IMG/VR virus record: IMGVR_UViG_3300012006_000007
Span: 1 to 48,105 of that record
DNA length: 48,105 nucleotides
Source: a virus
Reading direction: 5' to 3' (one strand)
Shown here: positions 8,994 through 45,535 of the stretch, one piece after another
Numbering within the stretch: position 1 is the stretch's first letter
Layout: every line of letters begins with the position of its first letter
The notes under the pieces: model-generated
Seen by the model: the letters and a program-made list of their open reading frames with translations, nothing else
Database searches by the model: none
Told to the model about the DNA's origin: nothing
Translations under genes and position numbers: made by a program

Positions 8994-9559
8994 AATATCA
9001 AGTAAAAGACAGTGGTGAGCGTGAAGAGTTTCCAAGTGGTTCTGTGCGTGACTCTCAGTTTGCTAAGGGCAGGTACGACCTGTTACCTTTTTCAGCATTA
9101 GAGAGGATTGCCATACACACAGAGTTGGGTGCTATGAAATATGGTGCACGCAATTGGGAGAAGGGTCAACCGATTGCACGCTATATCAATAGTGCTCTAC
9201 GCCACATAATTAAATATGCAATGGGCTATCGTGATGAGGATCACTTAGCTGCTTGTTGTTGGAATGTGATGGCAGCAATGTGGACTGAGGAAGAAGTTTT
9301 ACTAAACAATTTACCCGCTGAACTAGGAGAAGGTTATGTTATCAGATCACACAGGGGAAGACAATTCCGGCCTGAAGAACAAAATGTCACAGCACAAGAT
9401 AATCAAAAAGGAGAGGAGGTTAGAAGCGATAGGGATGCGAAAACAGGGGATGACATATGCAGAGATTGGTCGTGCAATGGGTGTGACAAGGCAAGCTGCG
9501 TACAGTTATGTAGAGAGAGAATTCAAAAGCTTGATGAAGGAGGGCAGTGTAGTAGCTGA
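8990..9559 (+). CDS. dATP/dGTP diphosphohydrolase-like protein (DUF5664)
   Basis: A 189-residue protein whose first 112 residues match the DUF5664 / dATP-dGTP pyrophosphohydrolase (MazG-like all-alpha) pattern: GRYDLLPFSALERIA, HTELGAMKYGARNWEKG, then YINSALRHIIKY and EDHLAACCWNVMA with acidic metal ligands. Such enzymes alter nucleotide pools and are known in phages with modified bases. The domain ends at almost the exact base where the small-terminase-like gene begins; the last 75 residues are read in 224 bp of overlap with it and form a Cys-rich tail with six Cys. That tail may be fortuitous. Starts by ATGA overlap with the polymerase. Confidence 0.75.
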   Translation: MKYQVKDSGEREEFPSGSVRDSQFAKGRYDLLPFSALERIAIHTELGAMKYGARNWEKGQPIARYINSALRHIIKYAMGYRDEDHLAACCWNVMAAMWTEEEVLLNNLPAELGEGYVIRSHRGRQFRPEEQNVTAQDNQKGEEVRSDRDAKTGDDICRDWSCNGCDKASCVQLCRERIQKLDEGGQCSS

Positions 9560-9866
9560 GAAAGCACTTAGCCTAACACTGGCTAGGTTCGATGAGCTAC
9601 TAAAGGTATACTATAAGGAGGCAACCGCTGGTAACAGAGAATCACTTCAGTCTGTGTTATCTATCATGGATAGACAGATTAAGATATTAGGACTTGAGGC
9701 ACCTAAGAAGTCTGAATCTACTGTCACATACCAGACTCTATCAGACCAAGAGCTAATACAACAGGCAGGCATGTGGGGTATCAGTATCCCAATGGACCAG
9801 CTGACTGTGCAACCTGAATCCCTGAATGATGGAAACTTTCCAAATCATCCAGATTTATTGCAATAA
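9336..9866 (+). CDS. Small-terminase-like HTH protein
   Basis: A 176-residue protein with an N-terminal helix-turn-helix (MRKQGMTYAEIGRAMGVTRQ, residues 34-53) followed by AAYSYVE, then a helical middle (LTLARFDELLKVYYKEATAG) and the segment IMDRQIKILGLEAPKKSES common in phage small-terminase or DNA-binding adaptor proteins. It would recognise the packaging site and hand DNA to the large terminase at 11372. GGAG at 9326-9329 supports ATG 9336; a second ATG at 9384 lacks a site. It is separated from the large terminase by a terminator, three small genes and one reverse gene, which is unusual. Confidence 0.65.
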   Translation: MLSDHTGEDNSGLKNKMSQHKIIKKERRLEAIGMRKQGMTYAEIGRAMGVTRQAAYSYVEREFKSLMKEGSVVAEKALSLTLARFDELLKVYYKEATAGNRESLQSVLSIMDRQIKILGLEAPKKSESTVTYQTLSDQELIQQAGMWGISIPMDQLTVQPESLNDGNFPNHPDLLQ

Positions 9867-10944: not shown

Positions 10945-10974
10945 TTGACACATAAAACAAGCACAGACTATAAT
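10945..10974 (+). promoter_or_regulatory. Consensus sigma70-like promoter
   Basis: TTGACA (10945-10950) and TATAAT (10969-10974) are perfect boxes with an 18-bp spacer, just after the terminator. The first forward gene downstream is the large terminase at 11372, so this is the best candidate for a promoter of the packaging and structural genes, reading through an antisense gene. The predicted transcript begins at the base of a long hairpin. Confidence 0.7.
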
Positions 10975-10975
10975 C

Positions 10976-11036
10976 GCATATAGAGAGATTTACTGCCAGA
11001 GCGCGAGCGTCAGGCAGGTAAATCTCTTATATACAA
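10976..11036 (+). promoter_or_regulatory. Long hairpin at predicted transcript 5' end
   Basis: AGAGATTTACTGCC pairs with GGCAGGTAAATCTCT, with one bulged base, and an outer ATATA/TATAT extends the stem to roughly 19 pairs. The loop region is GC-rich (AGAGCGCGAGCGTCA). There is no T tract after it. It could be a stabilising or regulated leader, a small RNA, or the 3' end structure of the reverse gene at 11043. Confidence 0.5.
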
Positions 11037-11042
11037 ATTGCA

Positions 11043-11303
11043 CTAGTCTTCTAGATCTTTTACAAATCCCATTAGCTGAAACATACTAGCACAATAGGTT
11101 TCTAGCTGGACAGGGTTGTCCTTGGTTGCAACAAATGTACCATCGTTGCGTTCAATAGTCCAATTCTCAACATCATCCCTGAACTTCATCATCGCACCAA
11201 TAAACTTGTACATCTTACCAAGGTTTAGTTGCCAATCACAGGTGTAGTCTGTCTTGTCTGTGAACAACACATGAATCCTGAAGCACATCCCACGCTTAAT
11301 CAT
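11043..11303 (-). CDS. Hypothetical protein on reverse strand
   Basis: An 86-residue protein of unknown function, the only reverse gene outside the methyltransferase cassette. I start it at 11303 (MIKRGMCFRIHVLF) because GAGGGAG lies just before that ATG; an in-frame ATG at 11339 has no site. It is strand-rich with conserved-looking DWQLNLGKMYKFIGAMMKF and ETYCASMFQL segments. It lies between the candidate late promoter and the large terminase and is antisense to that transcript, so forward and reverse transcription may interfere. Confidence 0.6.
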   Translation of the reverse strand: MIKRGMCFRIHVLFTDKTDYTCDWQLNLGKMYKFIGAMMKFRDDVENWTIERNDGTFVATKDNPVQLETYCASMFQLMGFVKDLED

Positions 11304-11344
11304 AGCTTTCTCCCTCAAAATGTGATAATGTAAAACCAACTGTT

Positions 11345-11372
11345 ATTATATAACCTCACTGGGAATAAACAA
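11345..11372 (-). promoter_or_regulatory. Possible reverse promoter for 11043 gene
   Basis: On the reverse strand, TTGTTT (11372-11367) and TATAAT (11350-11345) are 16 bp apart, upstream of the GAGGGAG site. The boxes overlap the start of the large terminase gene. Confidence 0.45.
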
Positions 11373-12946
11373 TGTCAGCAGCAATGACCAGATTAGAATT
11401 AGAGGAGAAGTTAAAACAAGCTTACACTATTGCGGAGTTAGCATCAGCACGCAGTATTAAAGGATATTTAGACTCTGTAATTATTGACTCACGCCCTGAG
11501 CCTAGGCGTTTCGCACATGTCGCACGACCTTGGCAATGGAAGCGTACTGATTACATGATGGCACCTATTGAGGCGTTGTGTGGTTTACGCCCTGAGTTTA
11601 AAGGTCCTCGCAACACATGGGAAACATTACCCCGTGGTCATGACAAGACAACAGGACTCGCACGCATATGTAATTGGGTACTAGCGTTCAGTCGTAAACC
11701 AATTGAGATAGTTGCAGCAGCGGCAGATTTCGACCAAGCAGCACTACTTGTTGAGTCTATGGCAGCAGAGGCTAGATTGAATCCTTGGTTAGCTAAACGC
11801 ATTGTGTATGGTGCTAAGAGAATCAAAGGACCGGGTGGAATACTAAAGATTCTAACTGCGGATAGCGCAACATCATTTGGATTGAGAGCAGACTTGGTTG
11901 TGTGTGATGAGGTGACGCACTGGAAGAAGAGAGACTTGTGGGATACACTATGGTCAGGTAGGCAGAAGCGACCTGGATCTGTGTTTGTTGTTATCACAAA
12001 CGCTGGCACACTTGGTTCGTGGCAACATGAGATTGTAGAACAAGTTAAGACAGATGATAGCTGGACAGTCTACGAAGCTAATGGACAATTAGACTCTTGG
12101 ATGGATGCAGAAGCTATCCAGCGTGATCGAGCACTATTACCTAATGGTGTTGCACGCCGTGTGCTAGACAATGTGTGGATTGACCCAGCAGAAGAGTCAG
12201 GTTATCTAACAAGAGCAGAGATAAATTTAGGTACACAGCTAGGTGCAACAAAAAACCTTGTTTATACGACATCCGGTCTGCATGGCATGGAATATGTTGC
12301 TGCAATTGATTATGGAGCCAGAAGAGATAGGACTTCCATGTGTGTTATGCACCGTGATTTGGATGGTGTTTATGTGCTTGACAGAATGGACATTATCCAG
12401 GGCACACCACTTGCACCAGTACCAATTGCCACTGTTGATTCATGGATAGAGAATGTAGCTAGTAACTTCAACAATCCCACTATAATTATAGACCCTTGGC
12501 AGATGGAAGCCACCGTTCAAAAGTATGAACACAGACTGCGTTGCACTAGGTTTGATGGGCGTTCAGGTAAGTCTAATTATGAGATGGCGGAGTTGCTAAG
12601 GAGCCTATTAGTCAACAACCAATTAGCGTGGTATTCTGACCCTGCACCACTACAAGTTGGTAAGAGAAAAGAGACACTTGTTGAGGAGATGGCAGGCCTA
12701 ATAATCAAGACAACAGGTGCCTCGTACAGATTCGACCACACGAATGGCCTGCACGATGACCGCACAGTATCAATGGGCATGGCGCTAGTCACACTAGCTG
12801 GACAACAACAGGTAGGCCCGTGGGTAGCACCTGGTAGCCTGCTCAAACCTGCACCCACTGATTATAGCCTGCGCACACCTAAGTTCAATGGTATGTTTGG
12901 CTTAGGTCTAAAACCGGATAGTGCAGGTCGCAATATATTTGGTTAG
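11372..12946 (+). CDS. terL: Terminase large subunit
   Basis: A 524-residue packaging motor. The ATPase has a Walker A-like loop LPRGHDKTT (residues 86-94, Lys92), in the deviant Arg-Gly-His form seen in many phage terminases, and Walker B LVVCDE with Asp179 and Glu180. The RNase H-like nuclease shows AAIDYG (Asp313), IIIDPW (Asp374) and HDDRT (Asp462/Asp463). The protein translocates DNA into proheads and cuts it. The start at 11372 has only a weak GGGA upstream, and the gene overlaps a reverse promoter candidate. The 3' end carries TAGCCTGC words that continue into the repeat region beyond the stop. Confidence 0.93.
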   Translation: MSAAMTRLELEEKLKQAYTIAELASARSIKGYLDSVIIDSRPEPRRFAHVARPWQWKRTDYMMAPIEALCGLRPEFKGPRNTWETLPRGHDKTTGLARICNWVLAFSRKPIEIVAAAADFDQAALLVESMAAEARLNPWLAKRIVYGAKRIKGPGGILKILTADSATSFGLRADLVVCDEVTHWKKRDLWDTLWSGRQKRPGSVFVVITNAGTLGSWQHEIVEQVKTDDSWTVYEANGQLDSWMDAEAIQRDRALLPNGVARRVLDNVWIDPAEESGYLTRAEINLGTQLGATKNLVYTTSGLHGMEYVAAIDYGARRDRTSMCVMHRDLDGVYVLDRMDIIQGTPLAPVPIATVDSWIENVASNFNNPTIIIDPWQMEATVQKYEHRLRCTRFDGRSGKSNYEMAELLRSLLVNNQLAWYSDPAPLQVGKRKETLVEEMAGLIIKTTGASYRFDHTNGLHDDRTVSMGMALVTLAGQQQVGPWVAPGSLLKPAPTDYSLRTPKFNGMFGLGLKPDSAGRNIFG

Positions 12947-13212
12947 CCTGCACCTCCCGGAATAAGAGAGTTGTAATGTGCGTAATAGGTTAGCCTGCAC
13001 ATTCCATGTTACAAACTGTGGGCATCGCTGCGCGATAGCCTGCATTGTGTACTATAAAATTGTAGCGGCTCCGCGCCGCCTCCATGCAAAAACATGTAGT
13101 GCACTTCGTGCACATCAGTTGTAGTCTGTAGTTGCAGGTCGCTACGCTCCCTGCACAAAAGCGGCGAATTAAAGATATAAATAGTCTTAATCTATTTTTA
13201 GTTGCAGGCTAT

Positions 13213-13240
13213 CACCAAACGCTATAAAAATAGGGGTTTC
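13213..13240 (+). repeat. 28-nt hairpin repeat, copy 1
   Basis: Copy 1 of the CACCAAA...GTTTC element. CTAT and ATAG arms flank an AAAA loop, with AAA/TTT pairing outside. It differs from copy 2 at about five positions. Confidence 0.7.
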
Positions 13241-13313
13241 AGCACACCGCGCCGCTGCCTGCACATTAGAGATAAGAGATGTGCGAATATATTTTATTGC
13301 CTGCATCGATGTG

Positions 13314-13341
13314 CACCAAAGCCTATAAATATAGGTGTTTC
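13314..13341 (+). repeat. 28-nt hairpin repeat, copy 2
   Basis: Copy 2, with arms CCTATA and TATAGG around AA. It begins 101 bp after copy 1 and is followed by GTGCAGGC. Confidence 0.75.
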
Positions 13342-13444
13342 GTGCAGGCTTCTTTTCTTGCCTGCACAATAGCGGCGAATAACGGATATAACTACTCTCA
13401 ATATATTAAGACTACACATGTGCGTTATTATTATTTTGCATGTT

Positions 13445-13472
13445 CACCAAAGCCTATGTTTATAGGGGTTTC
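13445..13472 (+). repeat. 28-nt hairpin repeat, copy 3
   Basis: Copy 3, with arms CCTAT and ATAGG around GTTT. It begins 131 bp after copy 2. The stem is kept while the loop differs from copy 2. Confidence 0.75.
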
Positions 13473-13552
13473 ATGACATACATTAGAGACACGCTTAGTG
13501 CACTATTACCTATTGCGGATAAGCGTAGTGTAAATATATTTATAGTGCGTAT

Positions 13553-13577
13553 CGCCGAGTACGGCGTTTTTTTTTTT
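13553..13577 (+). terminator. Intrinsic terminator after repeat region
   Basis: CGCCG (13553-13557) and CGGCG (13562-13566) form a perfect stem around AGTA, followed by eleven T. It ends forward transcription after terL and its repeat region, so the 600-bp repeat region is probably transcribed as an untranslated 3' segment. Confidence 0.92.
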
Positions 13578-13592
13578 GATTATTTTGTGTTA

Positions 13593-13619
13593 GGGGGGGG
13601 GCACCACCAGTGGGGGGGG
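13593..13619 (+). other. Two long G tracts
   Basis: Nine G (13593-13601) and eight G (13612-13619) are separated by CACCACCAGT. They lie between the forward terminator and the end of the reverse-strand cassette, and could form a G-quadruplex or mark a polymerase-blocking boundary. Homopolymer lengths may carry sequencing error. The rest of 13578-13666 holds nothing else I can support. Confidence 0.7.
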
Positions 13620-13666
13620 TACCTAAAATTTACGGAATAAAAAAAATGACACTATCTTCACAATAT

Positions 13667-13798
13667 CTACTTATTTAGAGATTTGAGTTCTTGTATAAAT
13701 TTGTACAGCACAAGTGCGTCATTCATTTGTATAAATGGTTTGGAGGCCTTGAACGCAGTTTCAATGCGTTCAAGGACTTCTAGTAATTCAGGAGTCAT
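13667..13798 (-). CDS. Small helical protein downstream of GP88-like gene
   Basis: A 43-residue ORF on the reverse strand, MTPELLEVLERIETAFKASK at its start and ending QELKSLNK. AAAGGA lies five bases before the ATG, and the start follows the stop of the GP88-like gene after one base, as in a real operon. It is amphipathic and helical. Function unknown; too short to recognise. It is the last member of the reverse cassette. Confidence 0.55.
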   Translation of the reverse strand: MTPELLEVLERIETAFKASKPFIQMNDALVLYKFIQELKSLNK

Positions 13799-13799
13799 G

Positions 13800-14492
13800 T
13801 TATCCTTTAAATCTTTTAGATTCTCTTTTAGACTGTTGCTGCCCAAATGTTAAACCATCTTGTATTTTAATAAACTGAGGAATCCTATTAGAGACAATCC
13901 CAATCTTATTTGTTGGCAAGGCGAAACAAAGTAAATCACTAGCACCTTGATCCATGTAACCAGCGTCTAAAAGTGCTTGTTCTGTAGGGAAAACATCACA
14001 GTGCCTGTCGTTCTCCTTGTCAATTAGGTGGTCTTCCCTGCCACCCATAGAAAACAAGTACCTGAAGTTGTGCGGTATCTCACGCTGGTATCTTTTAAAA
14101 CGGCTAACCTCTTTTGTGTAGGCATAAAATGTAACCTGTTCATGAAGTATAGCTATATCAATCCACGACTGTAGGTAGTCGTCTGAGAAGAAATCACCTG
14201 CATCGTGTATCCTCAGGTATTTCAAATTTCTCTTCTTGCGTATCTCAGCACTCATGTCAGTAAACCACTCAGCCTGTTTAAAAATAAAGTGCTCCAAGTT
14301 AGCAAGGTGCTTAGCCTTCACCACTGGAAAAAGGTAAGTACCATTGCGTGCGTAGCACATCTTCGCACACACACCTGCATTAGGGCAGCAGTTAAACCAG
14401 CTACCATCAGACATTTTTACATTCCATGCAGGTATAGTCCAATTCCAGATTCCATCCTTACGCAGTTCAGAATTCTGTGTTAGTAACTTCAT
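13800..14492 (-). CDS. GP88-family protein
   Basis: A 230-residue protein resembling the phage 'gene product 88' family. The N-terminus has IWNWTIPAW, then a Cys cluster (CCPNAGVCAKMCYARNG, Cys35, 36, 42, 46), a FKQAEWFTDM helix region and the RIHDAGDFFSDDYLQSWI motif near 94-111, followed by FYAYTKEVSRF. These elements are the family hallmarks; the biochemical role is not known to me, and the Cys cluster suggests metal or Fe-S binding as inference. Its start shares a base with the methyltransferase stop (TAATG on the reverse strand), so the two are co-translated. Confidence 0.72.
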   Translation of the reverse strand: MKLLTQNSELRKDGIWNWTIPAWNVKMSDGSWFNCCPNAGVCAKMCYARNGTYLFPVVKAKHLANLEHFIFKQAEWFTDMSAEIRKKRNLKYLRIHDAGDFFSDDYLQSWIDIAILHEQVTFYAYTKEVSRFKRYQREIPHNFRYLFSMGGREDHLIDKENDRHCDVFPTEQALLDAGYMDQGASDLLCFALPTNKIGIVSNRIPQFIKIQDGLTFGQQQSKRESKRFKG

Positions 14493-15958
14493 TACTTTAG
14501 CTCCTTGTTTACTTTGTTAATTCGTTCACCAATCCAACGCATAACAGGCACAGCCATAGAATTCCCTAGAGCTTTATATCTAGGGCCGTCTGGGCACAAT
14601 TCGGCAGGTTTATTCTTCCACGCAATAGATGTGTAGTCGTCAGGAAATCCTTGTAACCTTTCACATTCACGGGGTGTAAGTCTTCTAACAGCCGTACTTT
14701 TAATAAGCACATTTTCGCCGCCATTGTTCCTACCTTGTGCGTAGGCAATATCAGAAACACAAGGATCTTGTGTTCCATGAACAATGTGTGCGGACGAGCC
14801 AACGCCTGACGAAGTCAAGGCGTTGCTCGCATCAGTCTCATTCACATACAAACCACCATTGGGTCTGTCTTTCCTAGTGCCATTAGAATCACAAAATGTG
14901 ATGTTATAGGCAGCAGCAGTTTGGTTGTCTCCCATATCACCCCTTAGTGTACCTGTCATCTCCGGTATAAACCTGCTAGGGCTACCTTCCCTAGCTGCGA
15001 TTCCGGGTTCAAACGAGATAGACGCTAGCGGTGTGTCACCACGAACATTCGCACAATTCTTTGTTGTGAGTTGTGCTGTGTCGCTAGGTTGTGGGTTATG
15101 GTGTTGCTTCATGTCGTAGGTGGCTATGTGTGGTGCTTCATGAAGACAGTTTAGGGTTGGGCACAGGTCGTAGCACACCTCTGCGTCACCCTGTCCTGAA
15201 CTTCTACAAATCACACTCACAAGCTTACCTTCATGTGCGTACTGATCACTAACACCCTTAGGCCCATCAGCAGCAGCTAGTGCACCTGTGATAGGGGATG
15301 AGTATTCTATCTTGTAAGCACCGTCAACTATTTGTGAGTGGTCAACACCACGGTCGCCAAAGCCTCGTGTAATAGTTCCGGTAATTTCTTTCCTCTTTTC
15401 TCTGCTCGGCGTAGAATCCCTGCGCACGCTTTCGCACTCAAATAGAACCTTGGAAGCACTTGTTGTGTCTCCAAGACATCCGACAACAAACACACGCTTG
15501 CGTCTTTGGGCGAGTCCGAACCATTGAGCGTCAAGCACTCTGTAGGCCCACCCATACCCCATGTTCCCCAACGATGTGATGAAGGTAGAAAAATCTTTTC
15601 CTCCGTTAGATGACAATACACCGGGGACATTTTCCCAGACAATCCACTTAGGCCGTCTACTTTCAACGACTCTAAGGTAGGTAAGCATGATGTTTCCCCT
15701 GGGATCGTCCAATCCACCTCGCAAGCCTGCAATGCTGAAAGACTGGCAAGGTGTTCCTCCGACCAAAAGGTCAATTGTTGGTAACTTCCATTTTTTGTGC
15801 TCATTGATGTCTCCGTAGTTCTTAACTTTAGGGTAATGGTGTTTTAAAACTTCACAAGGAAAAGGTTCTATTTCAGAAAAACCTGCGGGTTTCCACCCTA
15901 GGTTTTTCCAAGCAACAGACGCTGCTTCTATACCTGAACATACCGATAAATACCGCAT
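14492..15958 (-). CDS. dcm: DNA (cytosine-5) methyltransferase
   Basis: A 488-residue m5C methyltransferase. Motif I is SVCSGIEAASVAW at the N-terminus, motif IV GGTPCQSFS has catalytic Cys71, motif VI is WENVPG near 108-113, motif VIII is QRRKRVF at 151-157. A variable target-recognition region of about 230 residues follows, with repeated T-x-L and GAL-type segments, then motifs IX and X (RRLTPRECERLQGFPDDY, RYKALGNSMAVPV). GAGGGT lies before the ATG. No partner restriction enzyme is nearby, so it is an orphan enzyme, probably protecting phage DNA or hiding it from host restriction. Confidence 0.93.
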   Translation of the reverse strand: MRYLSVCSGIEAASVAWKNLGWKPAGFSEIEPFPCEVLKHHYPKVKNYGDINEHKKWKLPTIDLLVGGTPCQSFSIAGLRGGLDDPRGNIMLTYLRVVESRRPKWIVWENVPGVLSSNGGKDFSTFITSLGNMGYGWAYRVLDAQWFGLAQRRKRVFVVGCLGDTTSASKVLFECESVRRDSTPSREKRKEITGTITRGFGDRGVDHSQIVDGAYKIEYSSPITGALAAADGPKGVSDQYAHEGKLVSVICRSSGQGDAEVCYDLCPTLNCLHEAPHIATYDMKQHHNPQPSDTAQLTTKNCANVRGDTPLASISFEPGIAAREGSPSRFIPEMTGTLRGDMGDNQTAAAYNITFCDSNGTRKDRPNGGLYVNETDASNALTSSGVGSSAHIVHGTQDPCVSDIAYAQGRNNGGENVLIKSTAVRRLTPRECERLQGFPDDYTSIAWKNKPAELCPDGPRYKALGNSMAVPVMRWIGERINKVNKELK

Positions 15959-29121: not shown

Positions 29122-30744
29122 ATGCCAGAAAAACCAAACATGATCCCAATAGATCACGATAAGCCTAGGAAGAAATTCCTAGGCTTAACTCTTCCTAAGA
29201 CACCTGAAGAGGTGGTTAAAGAGTATAGGGATTCTCAAGAGAAAAAACAAACTTCTAGCCCATCACCTGCACCATCACCAACGCCTACAGAAAATCCAGA
29301 ATCTCCAAAAGTTGAGAAGTTATTTCCTGACGAGCCTTTCGACCAGAATGTACCCGATAAAAATGGATTAGGGTATTCTAAAAATGAAATTGCAGATAGG
29401 GCGATGCCTAGCTACTTAAACAAGCAGTTACAGAACCTTGGCGGGTACAGCACAAACGCAGAAGTAAGGGATAAGGCACAAAAAACTATAAGGGAGCAAC
29501 AAGAGAAAGATTCTAGTAACATGGGCGGTAGCAGGTGGAGTAAAGAAGATATAGCTAAAGTTCAATCTGCTCGATCAAAGGACTTAGATGTTTTAGACGA
29601 AAAAGAAAAGCTACTACCTGGAAAATACCCTACACAAAACCAAACTATATTTTTAAACTCTGTAAGAAGTCAACGCAAAAGAACAGACCAACAATCACAC
29701 GATGAGCACCGTAGTAATAACCCCTCAGGTTGGGAACCATCAACCCCGAGTAAAATAACACCTACAACTTCCTTTGAATTCCTTGGATTGTTTCGTTTGC
29801 CTAGTGCTCCAAAAATGCCTCCAACTACACCTAAGGTACCGGCTACACCTAAAGTAGATAAGGATTTTAGAGAACAGATATTTAAGTTTCCGGGTGCAGG
29901 CAAAGACTACAAACCTAATCCAACAATGACTCCTCCTCCCCCAACACCTGCACCTAGCCCTACGCCTACAGAAAAACCAGAACAGAATCAAGCAACATGG
30001 CCTAGACAATCAACCACTGCTGTAGGTTTTGAATCACCTGAACTTAGTGCACGACCAACTAACCAAGCAACATGGCCTAGACAATCAACCACTGCTGTAG
30101 GTTTTGAATCACCTGAACTTTCTAATAGACCCTATGTAGGAAAACAAGAAAAAGAACTTGCACCTACGCCTAGCCCATCTCCAACAAGGCTAGCTAAATC
30201 TATTCCTATGCAACAACCTATACCAATACCACCACCTATACGACCGCCAGTAATGCCAAGCATTCCTGATTGGATAAGAAAACTAACGCCTTGGTTATTT
30301 CCAAAAACTCCAGTCAATCCAGATCCTAATAAACCAGATCCTAAAGATCCTAATAAACCAGATCCTAAAGATCCTACCCCAATAGAAACAGAAGATGATA
30401 AAAGAAAAAAGAAAATAGAAAAAGAGGAAGAAGAAGAAAGAAAAAGGCAAGAACAGGCAAGCGGTGGCGTACCTGGGGCAGGTGGTCAGGCTAACACGCC
30501 ACCACAACCACGCCCTGAACAACCTGTGCCCGCTGACCCTGTGCCAGACCCTAAGCCACCAGAAAAAAAAGATCCGCCAAAAGAACCTAAAAAACCAAAC
30601 CCTATGGATTTTGCAATGATGTTACCTACGCAAGGTAGTGTTAGCTCATTCCCTAGCATGGTTACTGGAATTCCAACCCACAGTGCACCTTCATTTGAAA
30701 AGACACAATTAGAGATAAACTATTACTCTGAATTAGGATTTTAA
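29122..30744 (+). CDS. Pro-rich disordered structural protein with internal repeats
   Basis: A 540-residue low-complexity protein. It has PSPAPSPTPTE-type linkers, two exact 25-residue tandem repeats starting NQATWPRQSTTAVGFES, a NKPDPKDP tandem repeat, a charged coiled stretch (KKKIEKEEEEERKRQEQ near 430-447) and a compact C-terminal tail ending NYYSELGF. No membrane segment and no recognised domain. It sits between neck-like genes and tail genes. The short conserved tail could be a docking peptide. Unknown function. Confidence 0.65.
   Translation: MPEKPNMIPIDHDKPRKKFLGLTLPKTPEEVVKEYRDSQEKKQTSSPSPAPSPTPTENPESPKVEKLFPDEPFDQNVPDKNGLGYSKNEIADRAMPSYLNKQLQNLGGYSTNAEVRDKAQKTIREQQEKDSSNMGGSRWSKEDIAKVQSARSKDLDVLDEKEKLLPGKYPTQNQTIFLNSVRSQRKRTDQQSHDEHRSNNPSGWEPSTPSKITPTTSFEFLGLFRLPSAPKMPPTTPKVPATPKVDKDFREQIFKFPGAGKDYKPNPTMTPPPPTPAPSPTPTEKPEQNQATWPRQSTTAVGFESPELSARPTNQATWPRQSTTAVGFESPELSNRPYVGKQEKELAPTPSPSPTRLAKSIPMQQPIPIPPPIRPPVMPSIPDWIRKLTPWLFPKTPVNPDPNKPDPKDPNKPDPKDPTPIETEDDKRKKKIEKEEEEERKRQEQASGGVPGAGGQANTPPQPRPEQPVPADPVPDPKPPEKKDPPKEPKKPNPMDFAMMLPTQGSVSSFPSMVTGIPTHSAPSFEKTQLEINYYSELGF
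29986..30120 (+). repeat. 75-bp in-frame tandem repeat
   Basis: Fifty-seven consecutive bases at 29989-30045 recur exactly at 30064-30120, period 75 bp, with only a synonymous Asn codon change just before. The exact match suggests a recent duplication. Confidence 0.9.
30322..30369 (+). repeat. 24-bp tandem repeat
   Basis: The 24-bp unit beginning GATCCTAATAAACCA occurs twice exactly, encoding DPNKPDPK repeats in the Pro-rich protein. Confidence 0.9.
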
Positions 30745-37945: not shown

Positions 37946-40900
37946 ATGCTAATTCAATTTAAAAATGGACCTAATTCTGTAATTGAAGCCAACGCCCTAG
38001 CTAACGCCTATTTAGCAGGTGAGCCAGCATACGCCAACAACACCAATAGCCTCTACATCGGTGGGGTGCTGTTATCCACTGGGGCAACCTACTACATCCA
38101 AGGTGCACAACCATCGAACCCGGCTAACCCTGACACGGCTAAGGCGTTCTGGTTTGATACAGATGACAACTTTTTATACATCTGGAAGTACGCTGGTGGT
38201 GTAGGTTCTTGGACTCGTGTTTTAGCATCTGGTGCAGAAGGACCAGCGGGTCCAGCTGGCGCAATAGGCTCAACAGGGGCACAAGGAATTCAAGGTATTC
38301 AGGGAGTCCGTGGGGCTACCTTTCTATCGGGCACAACAGGCCCAATTTCAACAACTACCGCAATAGACGGGGATTACTTCCTTAATACAACAACACGCCT
38401 GTTATACGGCCCCAGGGTCACTACAAGCGGTGTTGTCAGTTGGGGTGGAGCAATAGATCTTAAAGGGGAAACCGGAGCACAAGGGGCACAGGGAATTCAG
38501 GGTGTAGCTGGTGCTAATGGACCCGCAGGTTCTAAAATTTTCTACGGTAATGAAGTTCCAACTAGCATGTTCCCTAGCCCATCAGAGCGTAGGGAGGGTG
38601 ATTTTTACATTGATCTTGTAGCAGGTAGGCTGTACGGTGGGTACACTAATTCACAAGCATGGGGGGCAGGTGTATCACTTCTAGGTCCAGCGGGTTCTGC
38701 GGGTGCACAAGGTGCAAAAGGGGATGCAGGTAGTGCTGGTTTAGAATGGAAGGGAACATGGTCATCAGGCACCACTTACCCTATTCACTCGGTGGTACAG
38801 CACTCAGGTTCTAGTTATGTGTCTATAAAATCTACAACTAATGTGCCTACAAACGCATCAGATTGGGAGCTTGTAGCCTCAAAGGGAACTAGCACAACAG
38901 GCACGGCTACCATTTATGCAAACTCTCCAATTGTGTGGGATGAACCTACTACAACTCTTAGCTTTAATGTTCCAAATGCAACAACAGGTAATGTTCTAAA
39001 ATATGACGGTACAGCGTGGGTAGCAGGTACCAGCGTAGCAGCTAAATCAATATACTCTGGGGCAGGTGCACCAGCCTCTGAAACAGGGTCAGATGGCGAC
39101 TTTTATATGCAGATGGCTGGAACAGGTGCACCAATACTATTTGGACCAAAATCGGGCACAGATTGGGGATCTGGTGTGTCTCTAATAGGGGCTGATGGTA
39201 ATGACGGTCAAAATGGTATAGCTGGACCTGCGGGTGCTGACGGCACCCCAGGCATGGAGTGGAACTACGAGTGGGATTCTACGGTAAACTACTCTAAAGG
39301 TGCTGTGGTATCTTACTTGGGGTCGCTGTATATCTGCGAGGTTGATGATACTTTAAACATCACACCGAACACAACATTTAATTGGGATCTTCTAGTAGCT
39401 AAGGGTGAGCAAGGCGAGACAGCAAACATTGTAGGAACACTCCCTATTCTTACTGAATCTGTAACCACAGGTGTTTTTCCTGACGAGTCTACCACCCTCA
39501 CAGTCTCTCTAGCTGATGGAACAACCACAGGTGATGTTCTAACTTGGAATAGTGTATCTAAGACATGGGCAAGCCAGCAACCTATTGAGCTTCTAGATGG
39601 TCTAGCTGATGTAACAATTACTAATGTAGCATCTGGTCAGGTTTTAACCTATTCAGGAACAGAGTGGATAAACGGTGAGATCACTATTGAATCTCTATCT
39701 GATGTTTTAACAACATCAAATCAAGTTGGGGATGTTCTATCCTTTGACGGTACTAATTGGGTAAATTCAACAACAGTAAGCTCAATTAATGCAATAGCCC
39801 CTTTAAATTGGGATTCCAAAACATCTACAATAAAGATAGGGGATGGATCAAAAGAAGATCAAGCAATTTTGTGGAACACTACCACCTTAGCTTGGGAAAT
39901 TAAAGACCTACCCGCTGCTGACATCACTGCAAATGCACCACTGTTCTGGAATTCAACAGATAAGGTTCTTTCATTCGGAGTTGACGCACAGTCTGGGAAT
40001 GTGCTCATGTACGATGGTGTTGCGTGGGTTGCAGATACACCATACGACCACTCAAGGCCTACCATACTTTGGGGTGACGGTGTACCACCTCAGGGTATGG
40101 GGCACAGCGGTGATTTTTATATTGATACTACCGGGCATTATCTGTACGGACCAAAATGTTCAGGATGTTTAAACAACAAGTGGACATCTATTCAAGAACC
40201 TGTCAACTTAGTTGGTCCAACAGGTGCAATTGGTTTAACTGGACCACAAGGGGTGCAGGGAATTCAGGGTTTAGTAGGACCACAAGGTCCACAAGGAAAT
40301 TCAACACAAAACCTTATCCGAAAAGTAGACTTTGTTGGCACCCCGATGCCAGCCCCAACAACTTACAATTACCTTGGAAACAACGGTGACTTTTTAATAG
40401 TTAACGGAACAACTAGTATACGGTGGTACGGGCCTAAAGCAGCAGGTGTTTGGCCTACACCTTACATTGAATTAAAAGGCACAGAAGGTCCACAAGGCGT
40501 ACAAGGTATTCAGGGAATTGCAGGCCCTCAATCTGGTCAGATAATCCACAGTGCGACAGTATCTTCAAATAGCTCTACACCACCTGACCCTAGTGCAACA
40601 TTAGGTGATGTTGGCGACTTCCACATTACAGAACTTAATACCACCACAGGCGAGTATATTGGTAGTTATTTGTTTGGCCCAAAGACATCAAGTGCAACAG
40701 ATCCGTGGGGAACACCTAGAAACCTTAGAGGCCCAACAGGCTCGACAGGTGGCACAGGTGCACAAGGTCCAGCAGGCACAACCCCTAACCCAGCTTTATC
40801 GGACATAGATGGTGGTTTGTTTAACACAGGAACACCACAAGACCCAACTTTAGCCATAAAAACTACTTCAGGAACAGGCCTAGTTTTAAAAAACATTGGA

Positions 40901-43363: not shown

Positions 43364-45535
43364 ATGGCAAATTACTGTAGAAGCGGTGCTCTATTTACAT
43401 TCACAAACCCAACACCCCCATATAATAACGCAGGGTGCACAAACTACCCTAATGGTTACTGGACTACCAACACCTGGAACATCAATGACCCTAATAGACA
43501 AATACTTGGATATGGTCAGTATGTTGGTTCTGATTATAGGTGGATGCTAACAAGCAACGCTACCTCTAATTGTGTTATTCAAACATCCACCGCTCCTTAC
43601 AACAACAACATACCCCCACTTGCAGAATTTGGATTGATAGAAGGGGCGTGTCCACCCCCACCACCCGGTGTAGGTTATGTTTCACCGGATAGCGGTAATA
43701 TCGCAGGTGGCACCAGCATAACCATCACAGGTGTTAACTTTACTGGCGCAACTGCTGTTACCATCGGTGGAGTTGCTGCCACTAATGTTATTGTGGTTAA
43801 CTCAAACACTATCACGGCAACCACTCCCGCTGGAACTGTTGGTGCTAAAGCTGTGGTAGTTACCACACCAGATGGCACTAGTGCACTTGACAGCTTCTTA
43901 TTCACCTATACCCAACCATCTCCACTATGCGTGCCTATTAGTGCTACGGTTACAATAAGACCGTGGGGCAACCCGCAACTTAATGTAACCAGAAGTGTAG
44001 ATGCATTTTACAATTCTTCTAGTTCATACGGCTCCCCAGTTACTTTGGCATATTCGGAGTTAGGTCATAACTCAACCACATACCCAACTGTGGTCGTAAT
44101 GAAAAACCAAGGGGATCAATATGTTGTAATGCATAATAATTGGACTCAAGGTGCCCCTGGAGGATATGCGTTCTTTTTTGGGGATCGTTTGATAACCCCA
44201 AACACTACTCAGACATACTACGACTCAGACTCTTTTAATGGAGAGTTTGAAACTACAATTACTTGGGGTGCAGTGTATAGCTCTACACCCACACCTAGTC
44301 CAACTCCAACATCAACACTAAGCCCATGCCTTGCACCACCAGATACCAACACAGGTCCATTCTTTTTCCCAACTACAAAAGCAACAAACGACATCTACAG
44401 CTTTGCGGGTAGAGCTTGGTATTGGAACAGCTACGCATGGCACAGATATTGTATGAGTACAACACCAACACCAACGCCTACACCTAGCCCTACTCCAACA
44501 CCTGGAGCAGTAGCAGGGTATTATTTAACTTTGGATGTAACTTATCCAGACAACACACATGATTATATTTCTTCAGGTCATATGTACAATATAGCAAATA
44601 TTAACGGAAAGCCGTTTTACACTACAGCAGACGGTTGCAATTCTGTTTATTGGGATAACTCAAAATGGGTATACACTGGTAGGTATGGACAAAAAGATAC
44701 GACTCACCAAGGCACAGTTGTAAGTATTAGTGGGCCATCTTCAGGCGACACTTTCCCTATGACCGGATGGATTGTAACTAGTCATCAAGCTTACACAACA
44801 GGAATAGTAACTGTTGGTACAACTCCTCAAGCAGTACCCCCGACATTTGGAGATTGGATTTGTTTAGAAACTACAGGTATGTATTCAGGGCAGGTAAACG
44901 GAGCTTATTTCAGTACAAGCACAAGCAATGGTAGCTATTACAGATTAGACGGTGCTATAGGAAGCCCAGGTGCTAGTTGTGGACCGGACTTAGTTAAAAA
45001 TGGAACAGTGTTATATTTAACAGCAAATGGATATGGGTGGTCTGGTAATTTAAGTTACTTAGAACCTGTTACTGGGTTTGGTGAAGAACCTAATAGTAGA
45101 AGTATTGTAATGGTTTACTTAAACACATGTGGCCCAAATACTACTCCTACACCAACACCAACTCCTACACCAACTCCTACACCAACTCCTACACCGTTCG
45201 CCTTTGTTAGTCAATCTAGTGGGGGTAACTACAGTGGAACAGGTGGAAGCTCTTACGACTCCTTATCAGGTCAACTCTACTCCTACGGTTCACCTGAAAC
45301 AATGGTATTCACGGCGGGTATTACGGGCACCCTCAATTACAATATAAGCGGGTACGACATGATGGGTGGCTCAGGGGTTTACATGAGCATCTCGGTAGAC
45401 GGTAGTACTATAGCCACAAGTAGCTCTATGTCCTCATCAAGTGGAACTACTGCAATCACCGCAGGTCAATCAGTAACTTTGACTTTTGTTGGGTCAAGTA
45501 TGGCGTACAGTAACTTCTCAATTTACATGAGTTAA
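43364..45535 (+). CDS. TIG-domain adhesin with Thr-Pro linkers
   Basis: A 723-residue protein. After a Cys-containing N-terminal part, an IPT/TIG Ig-like domain at about 104-187 is clear (VSPDSGNIAGGTSITITGVN, TVGAKAVVVTTPDGTSALDS). Three Thr-Pro-Ser spacers (PTPSPTPT types) separate later beta-rich modules, one with many Gly/Tyr, and a C-terminal Ser-rich domain (GTLNYNISGYDMMGGSG, TAITAGQSVTLTF). This architecture is that of secreted or surface adhesins, suggesting a receptor-binding or decoration protein on the tail. AAGGGT precedes the ATG. Confidence 0.78.
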   Translation: MANYCRSGALFTFTNPTPPYNNAGCTNYPNGYWTTNTWNINDPNRQILGYGQYVGSDYRWMLTSNATSNCVIQTSTAPYNNNIPPLAEFGLIEGACPPPPPGVGYVSPDSGNIAGGTSITITGVNFTGATAVTIGGVAATNVIVVNSNTITATTPAGTVGAKAVVVTTPDGTSALDSFLFTYTQPSPLCVPISATVTIRPWGNPQLNVTRSVDAFYNSSSSYGSPVTLAYSELGHNSTTYPTVVVMKNQGDQYVVMHNNWTQGAPGGYAFFFGDRLITPNTTQTYYDSDSFNGEFETTITWGAVYSSTPTPSPTPTSTLSPCLAPPDTNTGPFFFPTTKATNDIYSFAGRAWYWNSYAWHRYCMSTTPTPTPTPSPTPTPGAVAGYYLTLDVTYPDNTHDYISSGHMYNIANINGKPFYTTADGCNSVYWDNSKWVYTGRYGQKDTTHQGTVVSISGPSSGDTFPMTGWIVTSHQAYTTGIVTVGTTPQAVPPTFGDWICLETTGMYSGQVNGAYFSTSTSNGSYYRLDGAIGSPGASCGPDLVKNGTVLYLTANGYGWSGNLSYLEPVTGFGEEPNSRSIVMVYLNTCGPNTTPTPTPTPTPTPTPTPTPFAFVSQSSGGNYSGTGGSSYDSLSGQLYSYGSPETMVFTAGITGTLNYNISGYDMMGGSGVYMSISVDGSTIATSSSMSSSSGTTAITAGQSVTLTFVGSSMAYSNFSIYMS
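45143..45196 (+). repeat. 12-bp Thr-Pro microsatellite
   Basis: Four 12-bp ACTCCTACACCA-type units, plus one 6-bp half unit, encode an uninterrupted Thr-Pro linker. Slippage would change linker length in frame, not the reading frame. Confidence 0.85.

Follow-up and report, generated by a model that had tools for sequence, protein, structure and literature searches.

The window, meaning the whole stretch of DNA that was analysed, is a virus record from IMG/VR and is 48,105 bp long; its two ends overlap by 98 bp, which makes the assembly circular. Its source is a freshwater phage. The genes lie mostly on the plus strand, in the order recombination and replication genes, probable TerS, terL, the array region, a cargo slot, the portal and structural genes. 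TerL found no match among GenBank phages in tblastn, and the portal search against GenBank phages returned a single match (25%). About 30 related contigs were collected by searching with TerL and the portal and by scanning for motifs. Four lineages were compared: A (the window, L010 and L017; TerL 99%), B (L004 and L005; 94–95%), C (L012–L014; 83%) and D (L142, L030 and L157; 77%). The features of the locus are as follows.

9336–9866, plus strand: probable TerS, an HTH protein (PF13384)
11372–12946, plus strand: terL (phrog_9, E=1.4e-29; PF03354), of the phiC31/HK97 (3'-cos) group by profile comparison
About 12944–13555, no strand: variable array of GCCTGCA words, hairpins and tandem alpha-H-beta units
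13134–13157 (approximate limits): hairpin with the constant loop TCGCTACGCTC, whose arms differ in A, B1 and B2 and still pair
13208–13243, plus strand: hairpin unit H1
13309–13344, plus strand: hairpin unit H2
13440–13475, plus strand: hairpin unit H3; lineage D has one such unit, in single copy
13553–13577, plus strand: intrinsic terminator of the window's own lineage; lineages C and D have no T-run terminator
13556–13564, plus strand: CGAGTACGG, the only 9-mer common to the compared sequences of the four lineages and a candidate terminase recognition word
13593–13619, plus strand: paired G runs, G9-CACCACCAGT-G8; nowhere else in the genome does a run of G or C reach 7
13655–13662, no strand: TCTTCACA, putative neighbourhood of the predicted cos cut
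13800–15958, minus strand: cargo slot genes (GP88 and cytosine methyltransferase), between the array region and the portal
16159: Mu-type portal, followed by the structural genes

The cargo slot (13646–15958) separates the G runs from the portal. It holds GP88 and the cytosine methyltransferase in the window, the methyltransferase alone in L004 and L005, other genes in L030 and an HNH gene in L057. An 86-aa frame present in L010 survives in the window only in truncated form (MTLSSQYLLI*). Upstream of terL there is a perfect sigma-70 promoter (TTGACA-N18-TATAAT, 10945–10974). A long hairpin (AGAGATTTAC...GTAAATCTCT) comes after it, within 10945–11050, and this promoter and hairpin face a conserved small minus-strand gene (11043–11339). 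Elsewhere, a near-perfect 16-bp inverted repeat at 1763–1804, inside a 330-bp gap, belongs to a stretch that folds among the strongest of the genome. The structural genes contain Thr-Pro low-complexity repeats (29245–30252 and 44273–45202) and collagen-like Gly-rich repeats (38254–40525).

The repeat and hairpin stretch after terL is real, and the elements that the first-pass annotation had described there were all recovered. GCCTGCA words occur in both orientations, with 8 exact copies in 12946–13366 (6 on the plus and 2 on the minus strand). The whole genome has 16 exact copies, and half of them fall within these 421 bp, for which shuffles predict about 0.05 (5.97 per 48 kb). The 20-nt block recurs with one mismatch (CCTGCACAAAAGCGGCGAAT at 13150 and CCTGCACAATAGCGGCGAAT at 13361). 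The three hairpin units share the pattern CACCAAAssCTATnnnnATAGGnGTTTC, start at 13208, 13309 and 13440 (spacing 101 and 131), and follow the order alpha-H-beta-H-alpha-H-beta, with H standing for the CACCAAAGCCTATnnnnATAGGnGTTTC hairpin. The short GC-rich palindromes correspond to hairpins at 13024–13036, 13065–13079 and 13099–13113, among others. Perfect stems of at least 5 numbered 6 in the window region against 2.4 ± 1.5 in shuffles, and the hairpin count of L012 was also raised (13 versus 5.1 in shuffles). The loops of the short hairpins in 13024–13161, read on the minus strand, are mostly GNA triloops (GCA, GAA, and GC-GTA-GC flanked by tandem GA). The GNA triloop is a very stable type of single-stranded DNA hairpin and is used by phage N4 promoters too. 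The strong terminator was found at 13553–13577 (CGCCG-AGTA-CGGCG-T11).

The array changes rapidly among relatives. Between lineages A and B, and inside each of them, whole units were gained or lost exactly between GCCTGCA words; a unit of L010 is missing from L002, and a unit of L005 is missing from L004. When the window, L004 and L005 were compared, the hairpin loop TCGCTnnGCTC was constant, while its arms changed from TGCAGG/CCTGCA to GTTCCGG/CCGGAAC and to CCAC/GTGG with pairing kept. In lineage C almost nothing could be aligned to the array, yet AGCCTGC was independently the most enriched 7-mer. In lineage D the corresponding region spans just some 290 nt, with one hairpin unit and zero GCCTGCA words. 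This turnover and the absence of the words from D suggest that the array is evolvable and that the words are non-essential. In the collinear relatives, the outcome on absence or random drift was mixed, because the region was always present and its core was stable, while the array drifted. From these comparisons the array is best read as a rapidly rearranging noncoding flank, possibly holding auxiliary protein-binding words.

The core was kept in the four lineages while the array was replaced or lost. CGAGTACGG was observed in all of them, whereas 0.03 shared 9-mers are expected in shuffled lineages, and CGAGTACGGC has a single occurrence in the genome. In all four lineages (TerL 99 to 77%), two runs of 6–10 G surround ACC and lie 37–42 bp after CGAGTACGG. 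In lineages A, B and C, TCTTCACA starts 34–38 nt past the second G run, which is a near-constant spacing; lineage D does not have it. Judged by this conservation, the interval first reported misses part of the core, since the functionally conserved stretch (13556–13665) straddles its end. Six relatives have contig ends that group inside the G runs or shortly ahead of them. These ends were considered as genome ends and set aside, because they scatter and miss the predicted cut; they are probably homopolymer assembly breaks.

The terminase proteins were compared with known ones. TerL was matched by hhalign to phiC31 (E=3e-7, prob 93) and HK97 (E=1.5e-5, prob 79), both of them 3'-cos phages, and not to P22, lambda, Mu or Soul22 (Soul22 E=0.04). 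By these profiles, TerL belongs with the phiC31/HK97 group and not with P22, lambda or Mu. The HTH protein is 70–99% identical across all lineages, and the alignment shows almost no change in the recognition helix. Its structural model (pLDDT 67, modest) was matched by Foldseek to viral proteins annotated as terminase small subunit (E 8e-5 to 9e-4), and no match was found among solved TerS structures in the PDB. The HTH protein is probably TerS, and the model is supportive only. Since the helix hardly varies across lineages A–D, CGAGTACGG would be a better candidate for the TerS word than GCCTGCA. An HNH gene (PF01844) was found in 1 of 33 family records (L057), and its adjacency there was rejected as a packaging mark of the family.

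G tracts were then looked for at the right ends of 14 3'-cos phages, which had been hand-picked and of which some are related to one another. A G run of at least 5 ended 30–50 nt from the right end in 9 of the 14 (1.34 expected from shuffles). Two further phages of the set had a G run at 17–23 nt from the end, and C runs were found at the right end of 3 of the 14. The controls, lambda and two circularly permuted phages, had a G run in 0/3. HK97 and HK022 carry G9 exactly 42 nt before the right end, and the distances are similar for phiC31 (G5, 40 nt), phiBT1 (G5, 39 nt), Soul22 (G7, 37 nt), TM4 (G7, 35 nt) and Bxb1 (G6, 34 nt). The right ends of D3 and DinoDaryn carry GGGGtGGGG/GGGGaGGGG, and Reyja has a paired G run (GGGGGTAAGGGGG) at 43–51 nt from the end. 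D3, phiC31, phiBT1, TM4, Bxb1, Soul22 and Ogopogo are known as 3'-cos phages. The overhangs of the Gordonia phages were taken from PMC6965592 and that of HK97 from PMC9410871/PMC11331095.

A pattern search for paired G runs in IMG/VR gave 95 stretches. In L089, L096 and L083, the paired G run adjoins terminase genes of other families. Among non-redundant unrelated contigs with TerL within 3 kb, the motif was 5' of TerL in 15/15 and on the TerL strand in 11/15, which fits a cos-terS-terL order; the distance to TerL was not shorter than chance, so only sidedness and strand are informative. One of these contigs, L097, could be aligned with Soul22-type mycobacteriophages (cluster F) at their cos junction, and its paired G run lies some 25 nt inside that genome end. 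A literature search found nothing linking G tracts with phage cos. Guanine is not mentioned in the HK97 literature examined, nor is G-rich in the part of that literature searched for it. Separately, an element GGGGGGGACCCTTTGGGGGGGTCCC recurs with conserved flanks in L076, L082, L086, L106, L108 and L116, which are long virus contigs (52–311 kb), probably of giant viruses. The core GGGGGGGAACCAACGGAGGGGGGGT is identical in L075, L085 and L088, and the flanks of L088 differ from those of L075 and L085.

We consider that the region is probably the terL-side flank of a packaging cut site, and that the predicted site is most likely 3'-cos of the HK97/phiC31 type, a class to which its membership is plausible. 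The observed base of this reading is the conservation pattern, the uniqueness of the G runs, the kinship of TerL and the G-tract spacing in known 3'-cos phages; from it we infer that there is a cut, where it falls, and which element each protein would bind. The 3'-cos reading is supported by the retention of CGAGTACGG and the paired G runs in four lineages despite array loss, and by the TerL kinship with phiC31 and HK97. It is also supported by the G runs 30–50 nt from the right end in 9/14 phages, the paired G run of L097 at a mycobacteriophage cos junction, the position 5' of TerL in 15/15 unrelated contigs, the TCTTCACA spacing in A, B and C and the near-invariance of the TerS helix. It is weakened because the HNH gene, usual beside 3'-cos sites, is in one relative only, because cos would sit 3' of terL and not 5' of terS, and because lineage D is without TCTTCACA. 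The chance-level distance between motif and TerL, the contig ends off the predicted cut and the hand-picked, partly related reference phages (14) also count against it. Among the roles that had been suggested earlier, a packaging site for the HTH protein is the best-supported candidate, though more as a 3'-cos site than as a headful pac, and with its centre on CGAGTACGG and the G pair at the right edge and not on GCCTGCA.

The following mechanism is proposed. Late in infection, the terminase (HTH TerS and TerL) would recognise the concatemer at this site, where TerS would read a word, with CGAGTACGG as the favoured candidate. The approach to the cut would be marked by CGAGTACGG and the paired G tracts. 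TerL would then cleave about 35–45 bp past the G tracts, on the conserved TCTTCACA; the predicted position, about 13653–13664, comes from applying the G-tract spacing of 3'-cos phages to the window. In the linear genome, terL would lie at the right end, with the array, then CGAGTACGG and lastly the G pair between it and the terminus; the left end would start with the cargo slot and portal.

It is rather unlikely that the site is instead a headful pac, at which TerS binds the GCCTGCA array or CGAGTACGG, the first cut, made close by through TerL, is imprecise, later cuts are sequence-independent and the genomes are permuted. An array of short words beside terL, together with an HTH protein, would suit such a site, as would circular contigs that open at unrelated places. 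Three contigs do circularise at unrelated places, with k-mer-sized overlaps (98, 127 and 127 bp); circular contigs fit ligated cos ends but also headful permutation, and do not separate the two. However, TerL groups with the 3'-cos enzymes and not with P22, lineage D has no word array, and a precise cut agrees better with the exact spacing between the G runs and the octamer downstream of them. A replication origin, with iteron-like words, AT-rich blocks, hairpins of single-stranded DNA type (the minus-strand GNA triloops) and an R-loop over the G runs, is improbable. The transcript R-loop would provide the primer for DNA synthesis by the family A polymerase of the phage, in the manner of ColE1 or of the mitochondrial heavy-strand origin. 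The non-template strand does carry the G runs, at the point where a structured and presumably transcribed stretch ends, and the replication set of the window includes family A polymerase and primase-helicase genes. In contrast, GC skew at fourfold sites showed no sign change marking an origin at the array region, and unrelated phages have G runs at packaging loci. The earlier idea of iterons as an essential origin is weakened by the loss of the GCCTGCA words in one lineage: they are enriched in A, B and C, and none is found in D, with its 77% TerL.

A structured noncoding RNA, or a long 3' UTR that carries the terL transcript on to the terminator at 13577, is more improbable still. Folding of the region as RNA was strong, with z of about -4 to -4.8 (-4.8 for the 631 nt, with 20 shuffles), the constant-loop hairpin exchanged its arms but kept pairing, and a terminator and a strong upstream promoter are present. 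However, 4 of 32 other 600-nt stretches of the genome match or exceed the array region in RNA folding, and the region is ordinary when cut into 300-nt pieces. Scans with Rfam 15 covariance models (at gathering score) and for tRNA gave no match. Sequence and architecture are not conserved in lineages C and D, and it is the minus strand, with its GNA triloops, that seems to give the hairpins their optimal loops; folded as DNA, this strand gave z -5.2 (20 shuffles). The packaging RNA once suggested may still exist, but the fold is not unique among genome stretches and has no Rfam counterpart. Least probable, and by our estimate very remote, are mobile or self-propagating palindromic repeats without phage function. 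They would agree with the way in which entire units come and go at GCCTGCA words, but the hairpin pattern is absent from the rest of the window genome, and in unrelated genomes, outside the relatives' family, it occurs only at about chance frequency, which does not support this earlier suggestion.

A site of the HK97/phiC31-type 3'-cos class gives a genome whose ends are fixed and carry 3' overhangs of about 10 nt. The window is like HK97/HK022 and phiC31-type phages in its related TerL, a G tract about 35–45 nt from the presumed cut and a probable small terminase with HTH. Unlike their sites, its G runs are paired with ACC between them, a long variable repeat array lies on the terL side, and the predicted site is 3' of terL, before the cargo slot and portal, without a conserved HNH gene. 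Cluster F mycobacteriophages (Soul22, Avani) and L097 have G runs 25–45 nt inside the right end, paired in L097, but their TerL is of another group (hhalign E=0.04) and their HNH-terS-terL genes are directly right of cos. The R sites of lambda cosB are likewise short repeated words close to a terminase cut, whereas lambda has 5' overhangs, a right end without a G tract and a TerL that does not match that of the window.

In the herpesvirus a sequence, as described for duck plague virus, pac1 consists of two C tracts around an A/T block, lies 32 bp from the cut and adjoins variable direct repeats (PMC10763189). According to a review (PMC13386867), pac1 DNA can adopt a G-quadruplex in vitro. The layout of the window resembles the a sequence (pac1/pac2), by analogy only, in the variable repeat array, the two C/G tracts and the terminase cut, a predicted one in the phage, about 30–45 bp on; it differs in that pac1 has C and not G on the strand toward the end, and an A/T spacer. 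Tentatively, a G tract, often paired, about 30–45 bp from the cut may be a general and largely unremarked 3'-cos element and the counterpart of herpesvirus pac1, with the terminases of herpesviruses and of tailed phages reading the same kind of end mark beside a fast-changing array, although we hold this to be doubtful. If the proposed reading is right, the TerL group together with a spaced G tract would allow the packaging sites of uncultivated phages to be predicted from their sequence, and genome ends could be obtained without virion DNA. It would also suggest a G/C-tract end signal common to 3'-cos phages and herpesviruses, which the available in vitro packaging system of HK97 (PMC9410871) makes testable.
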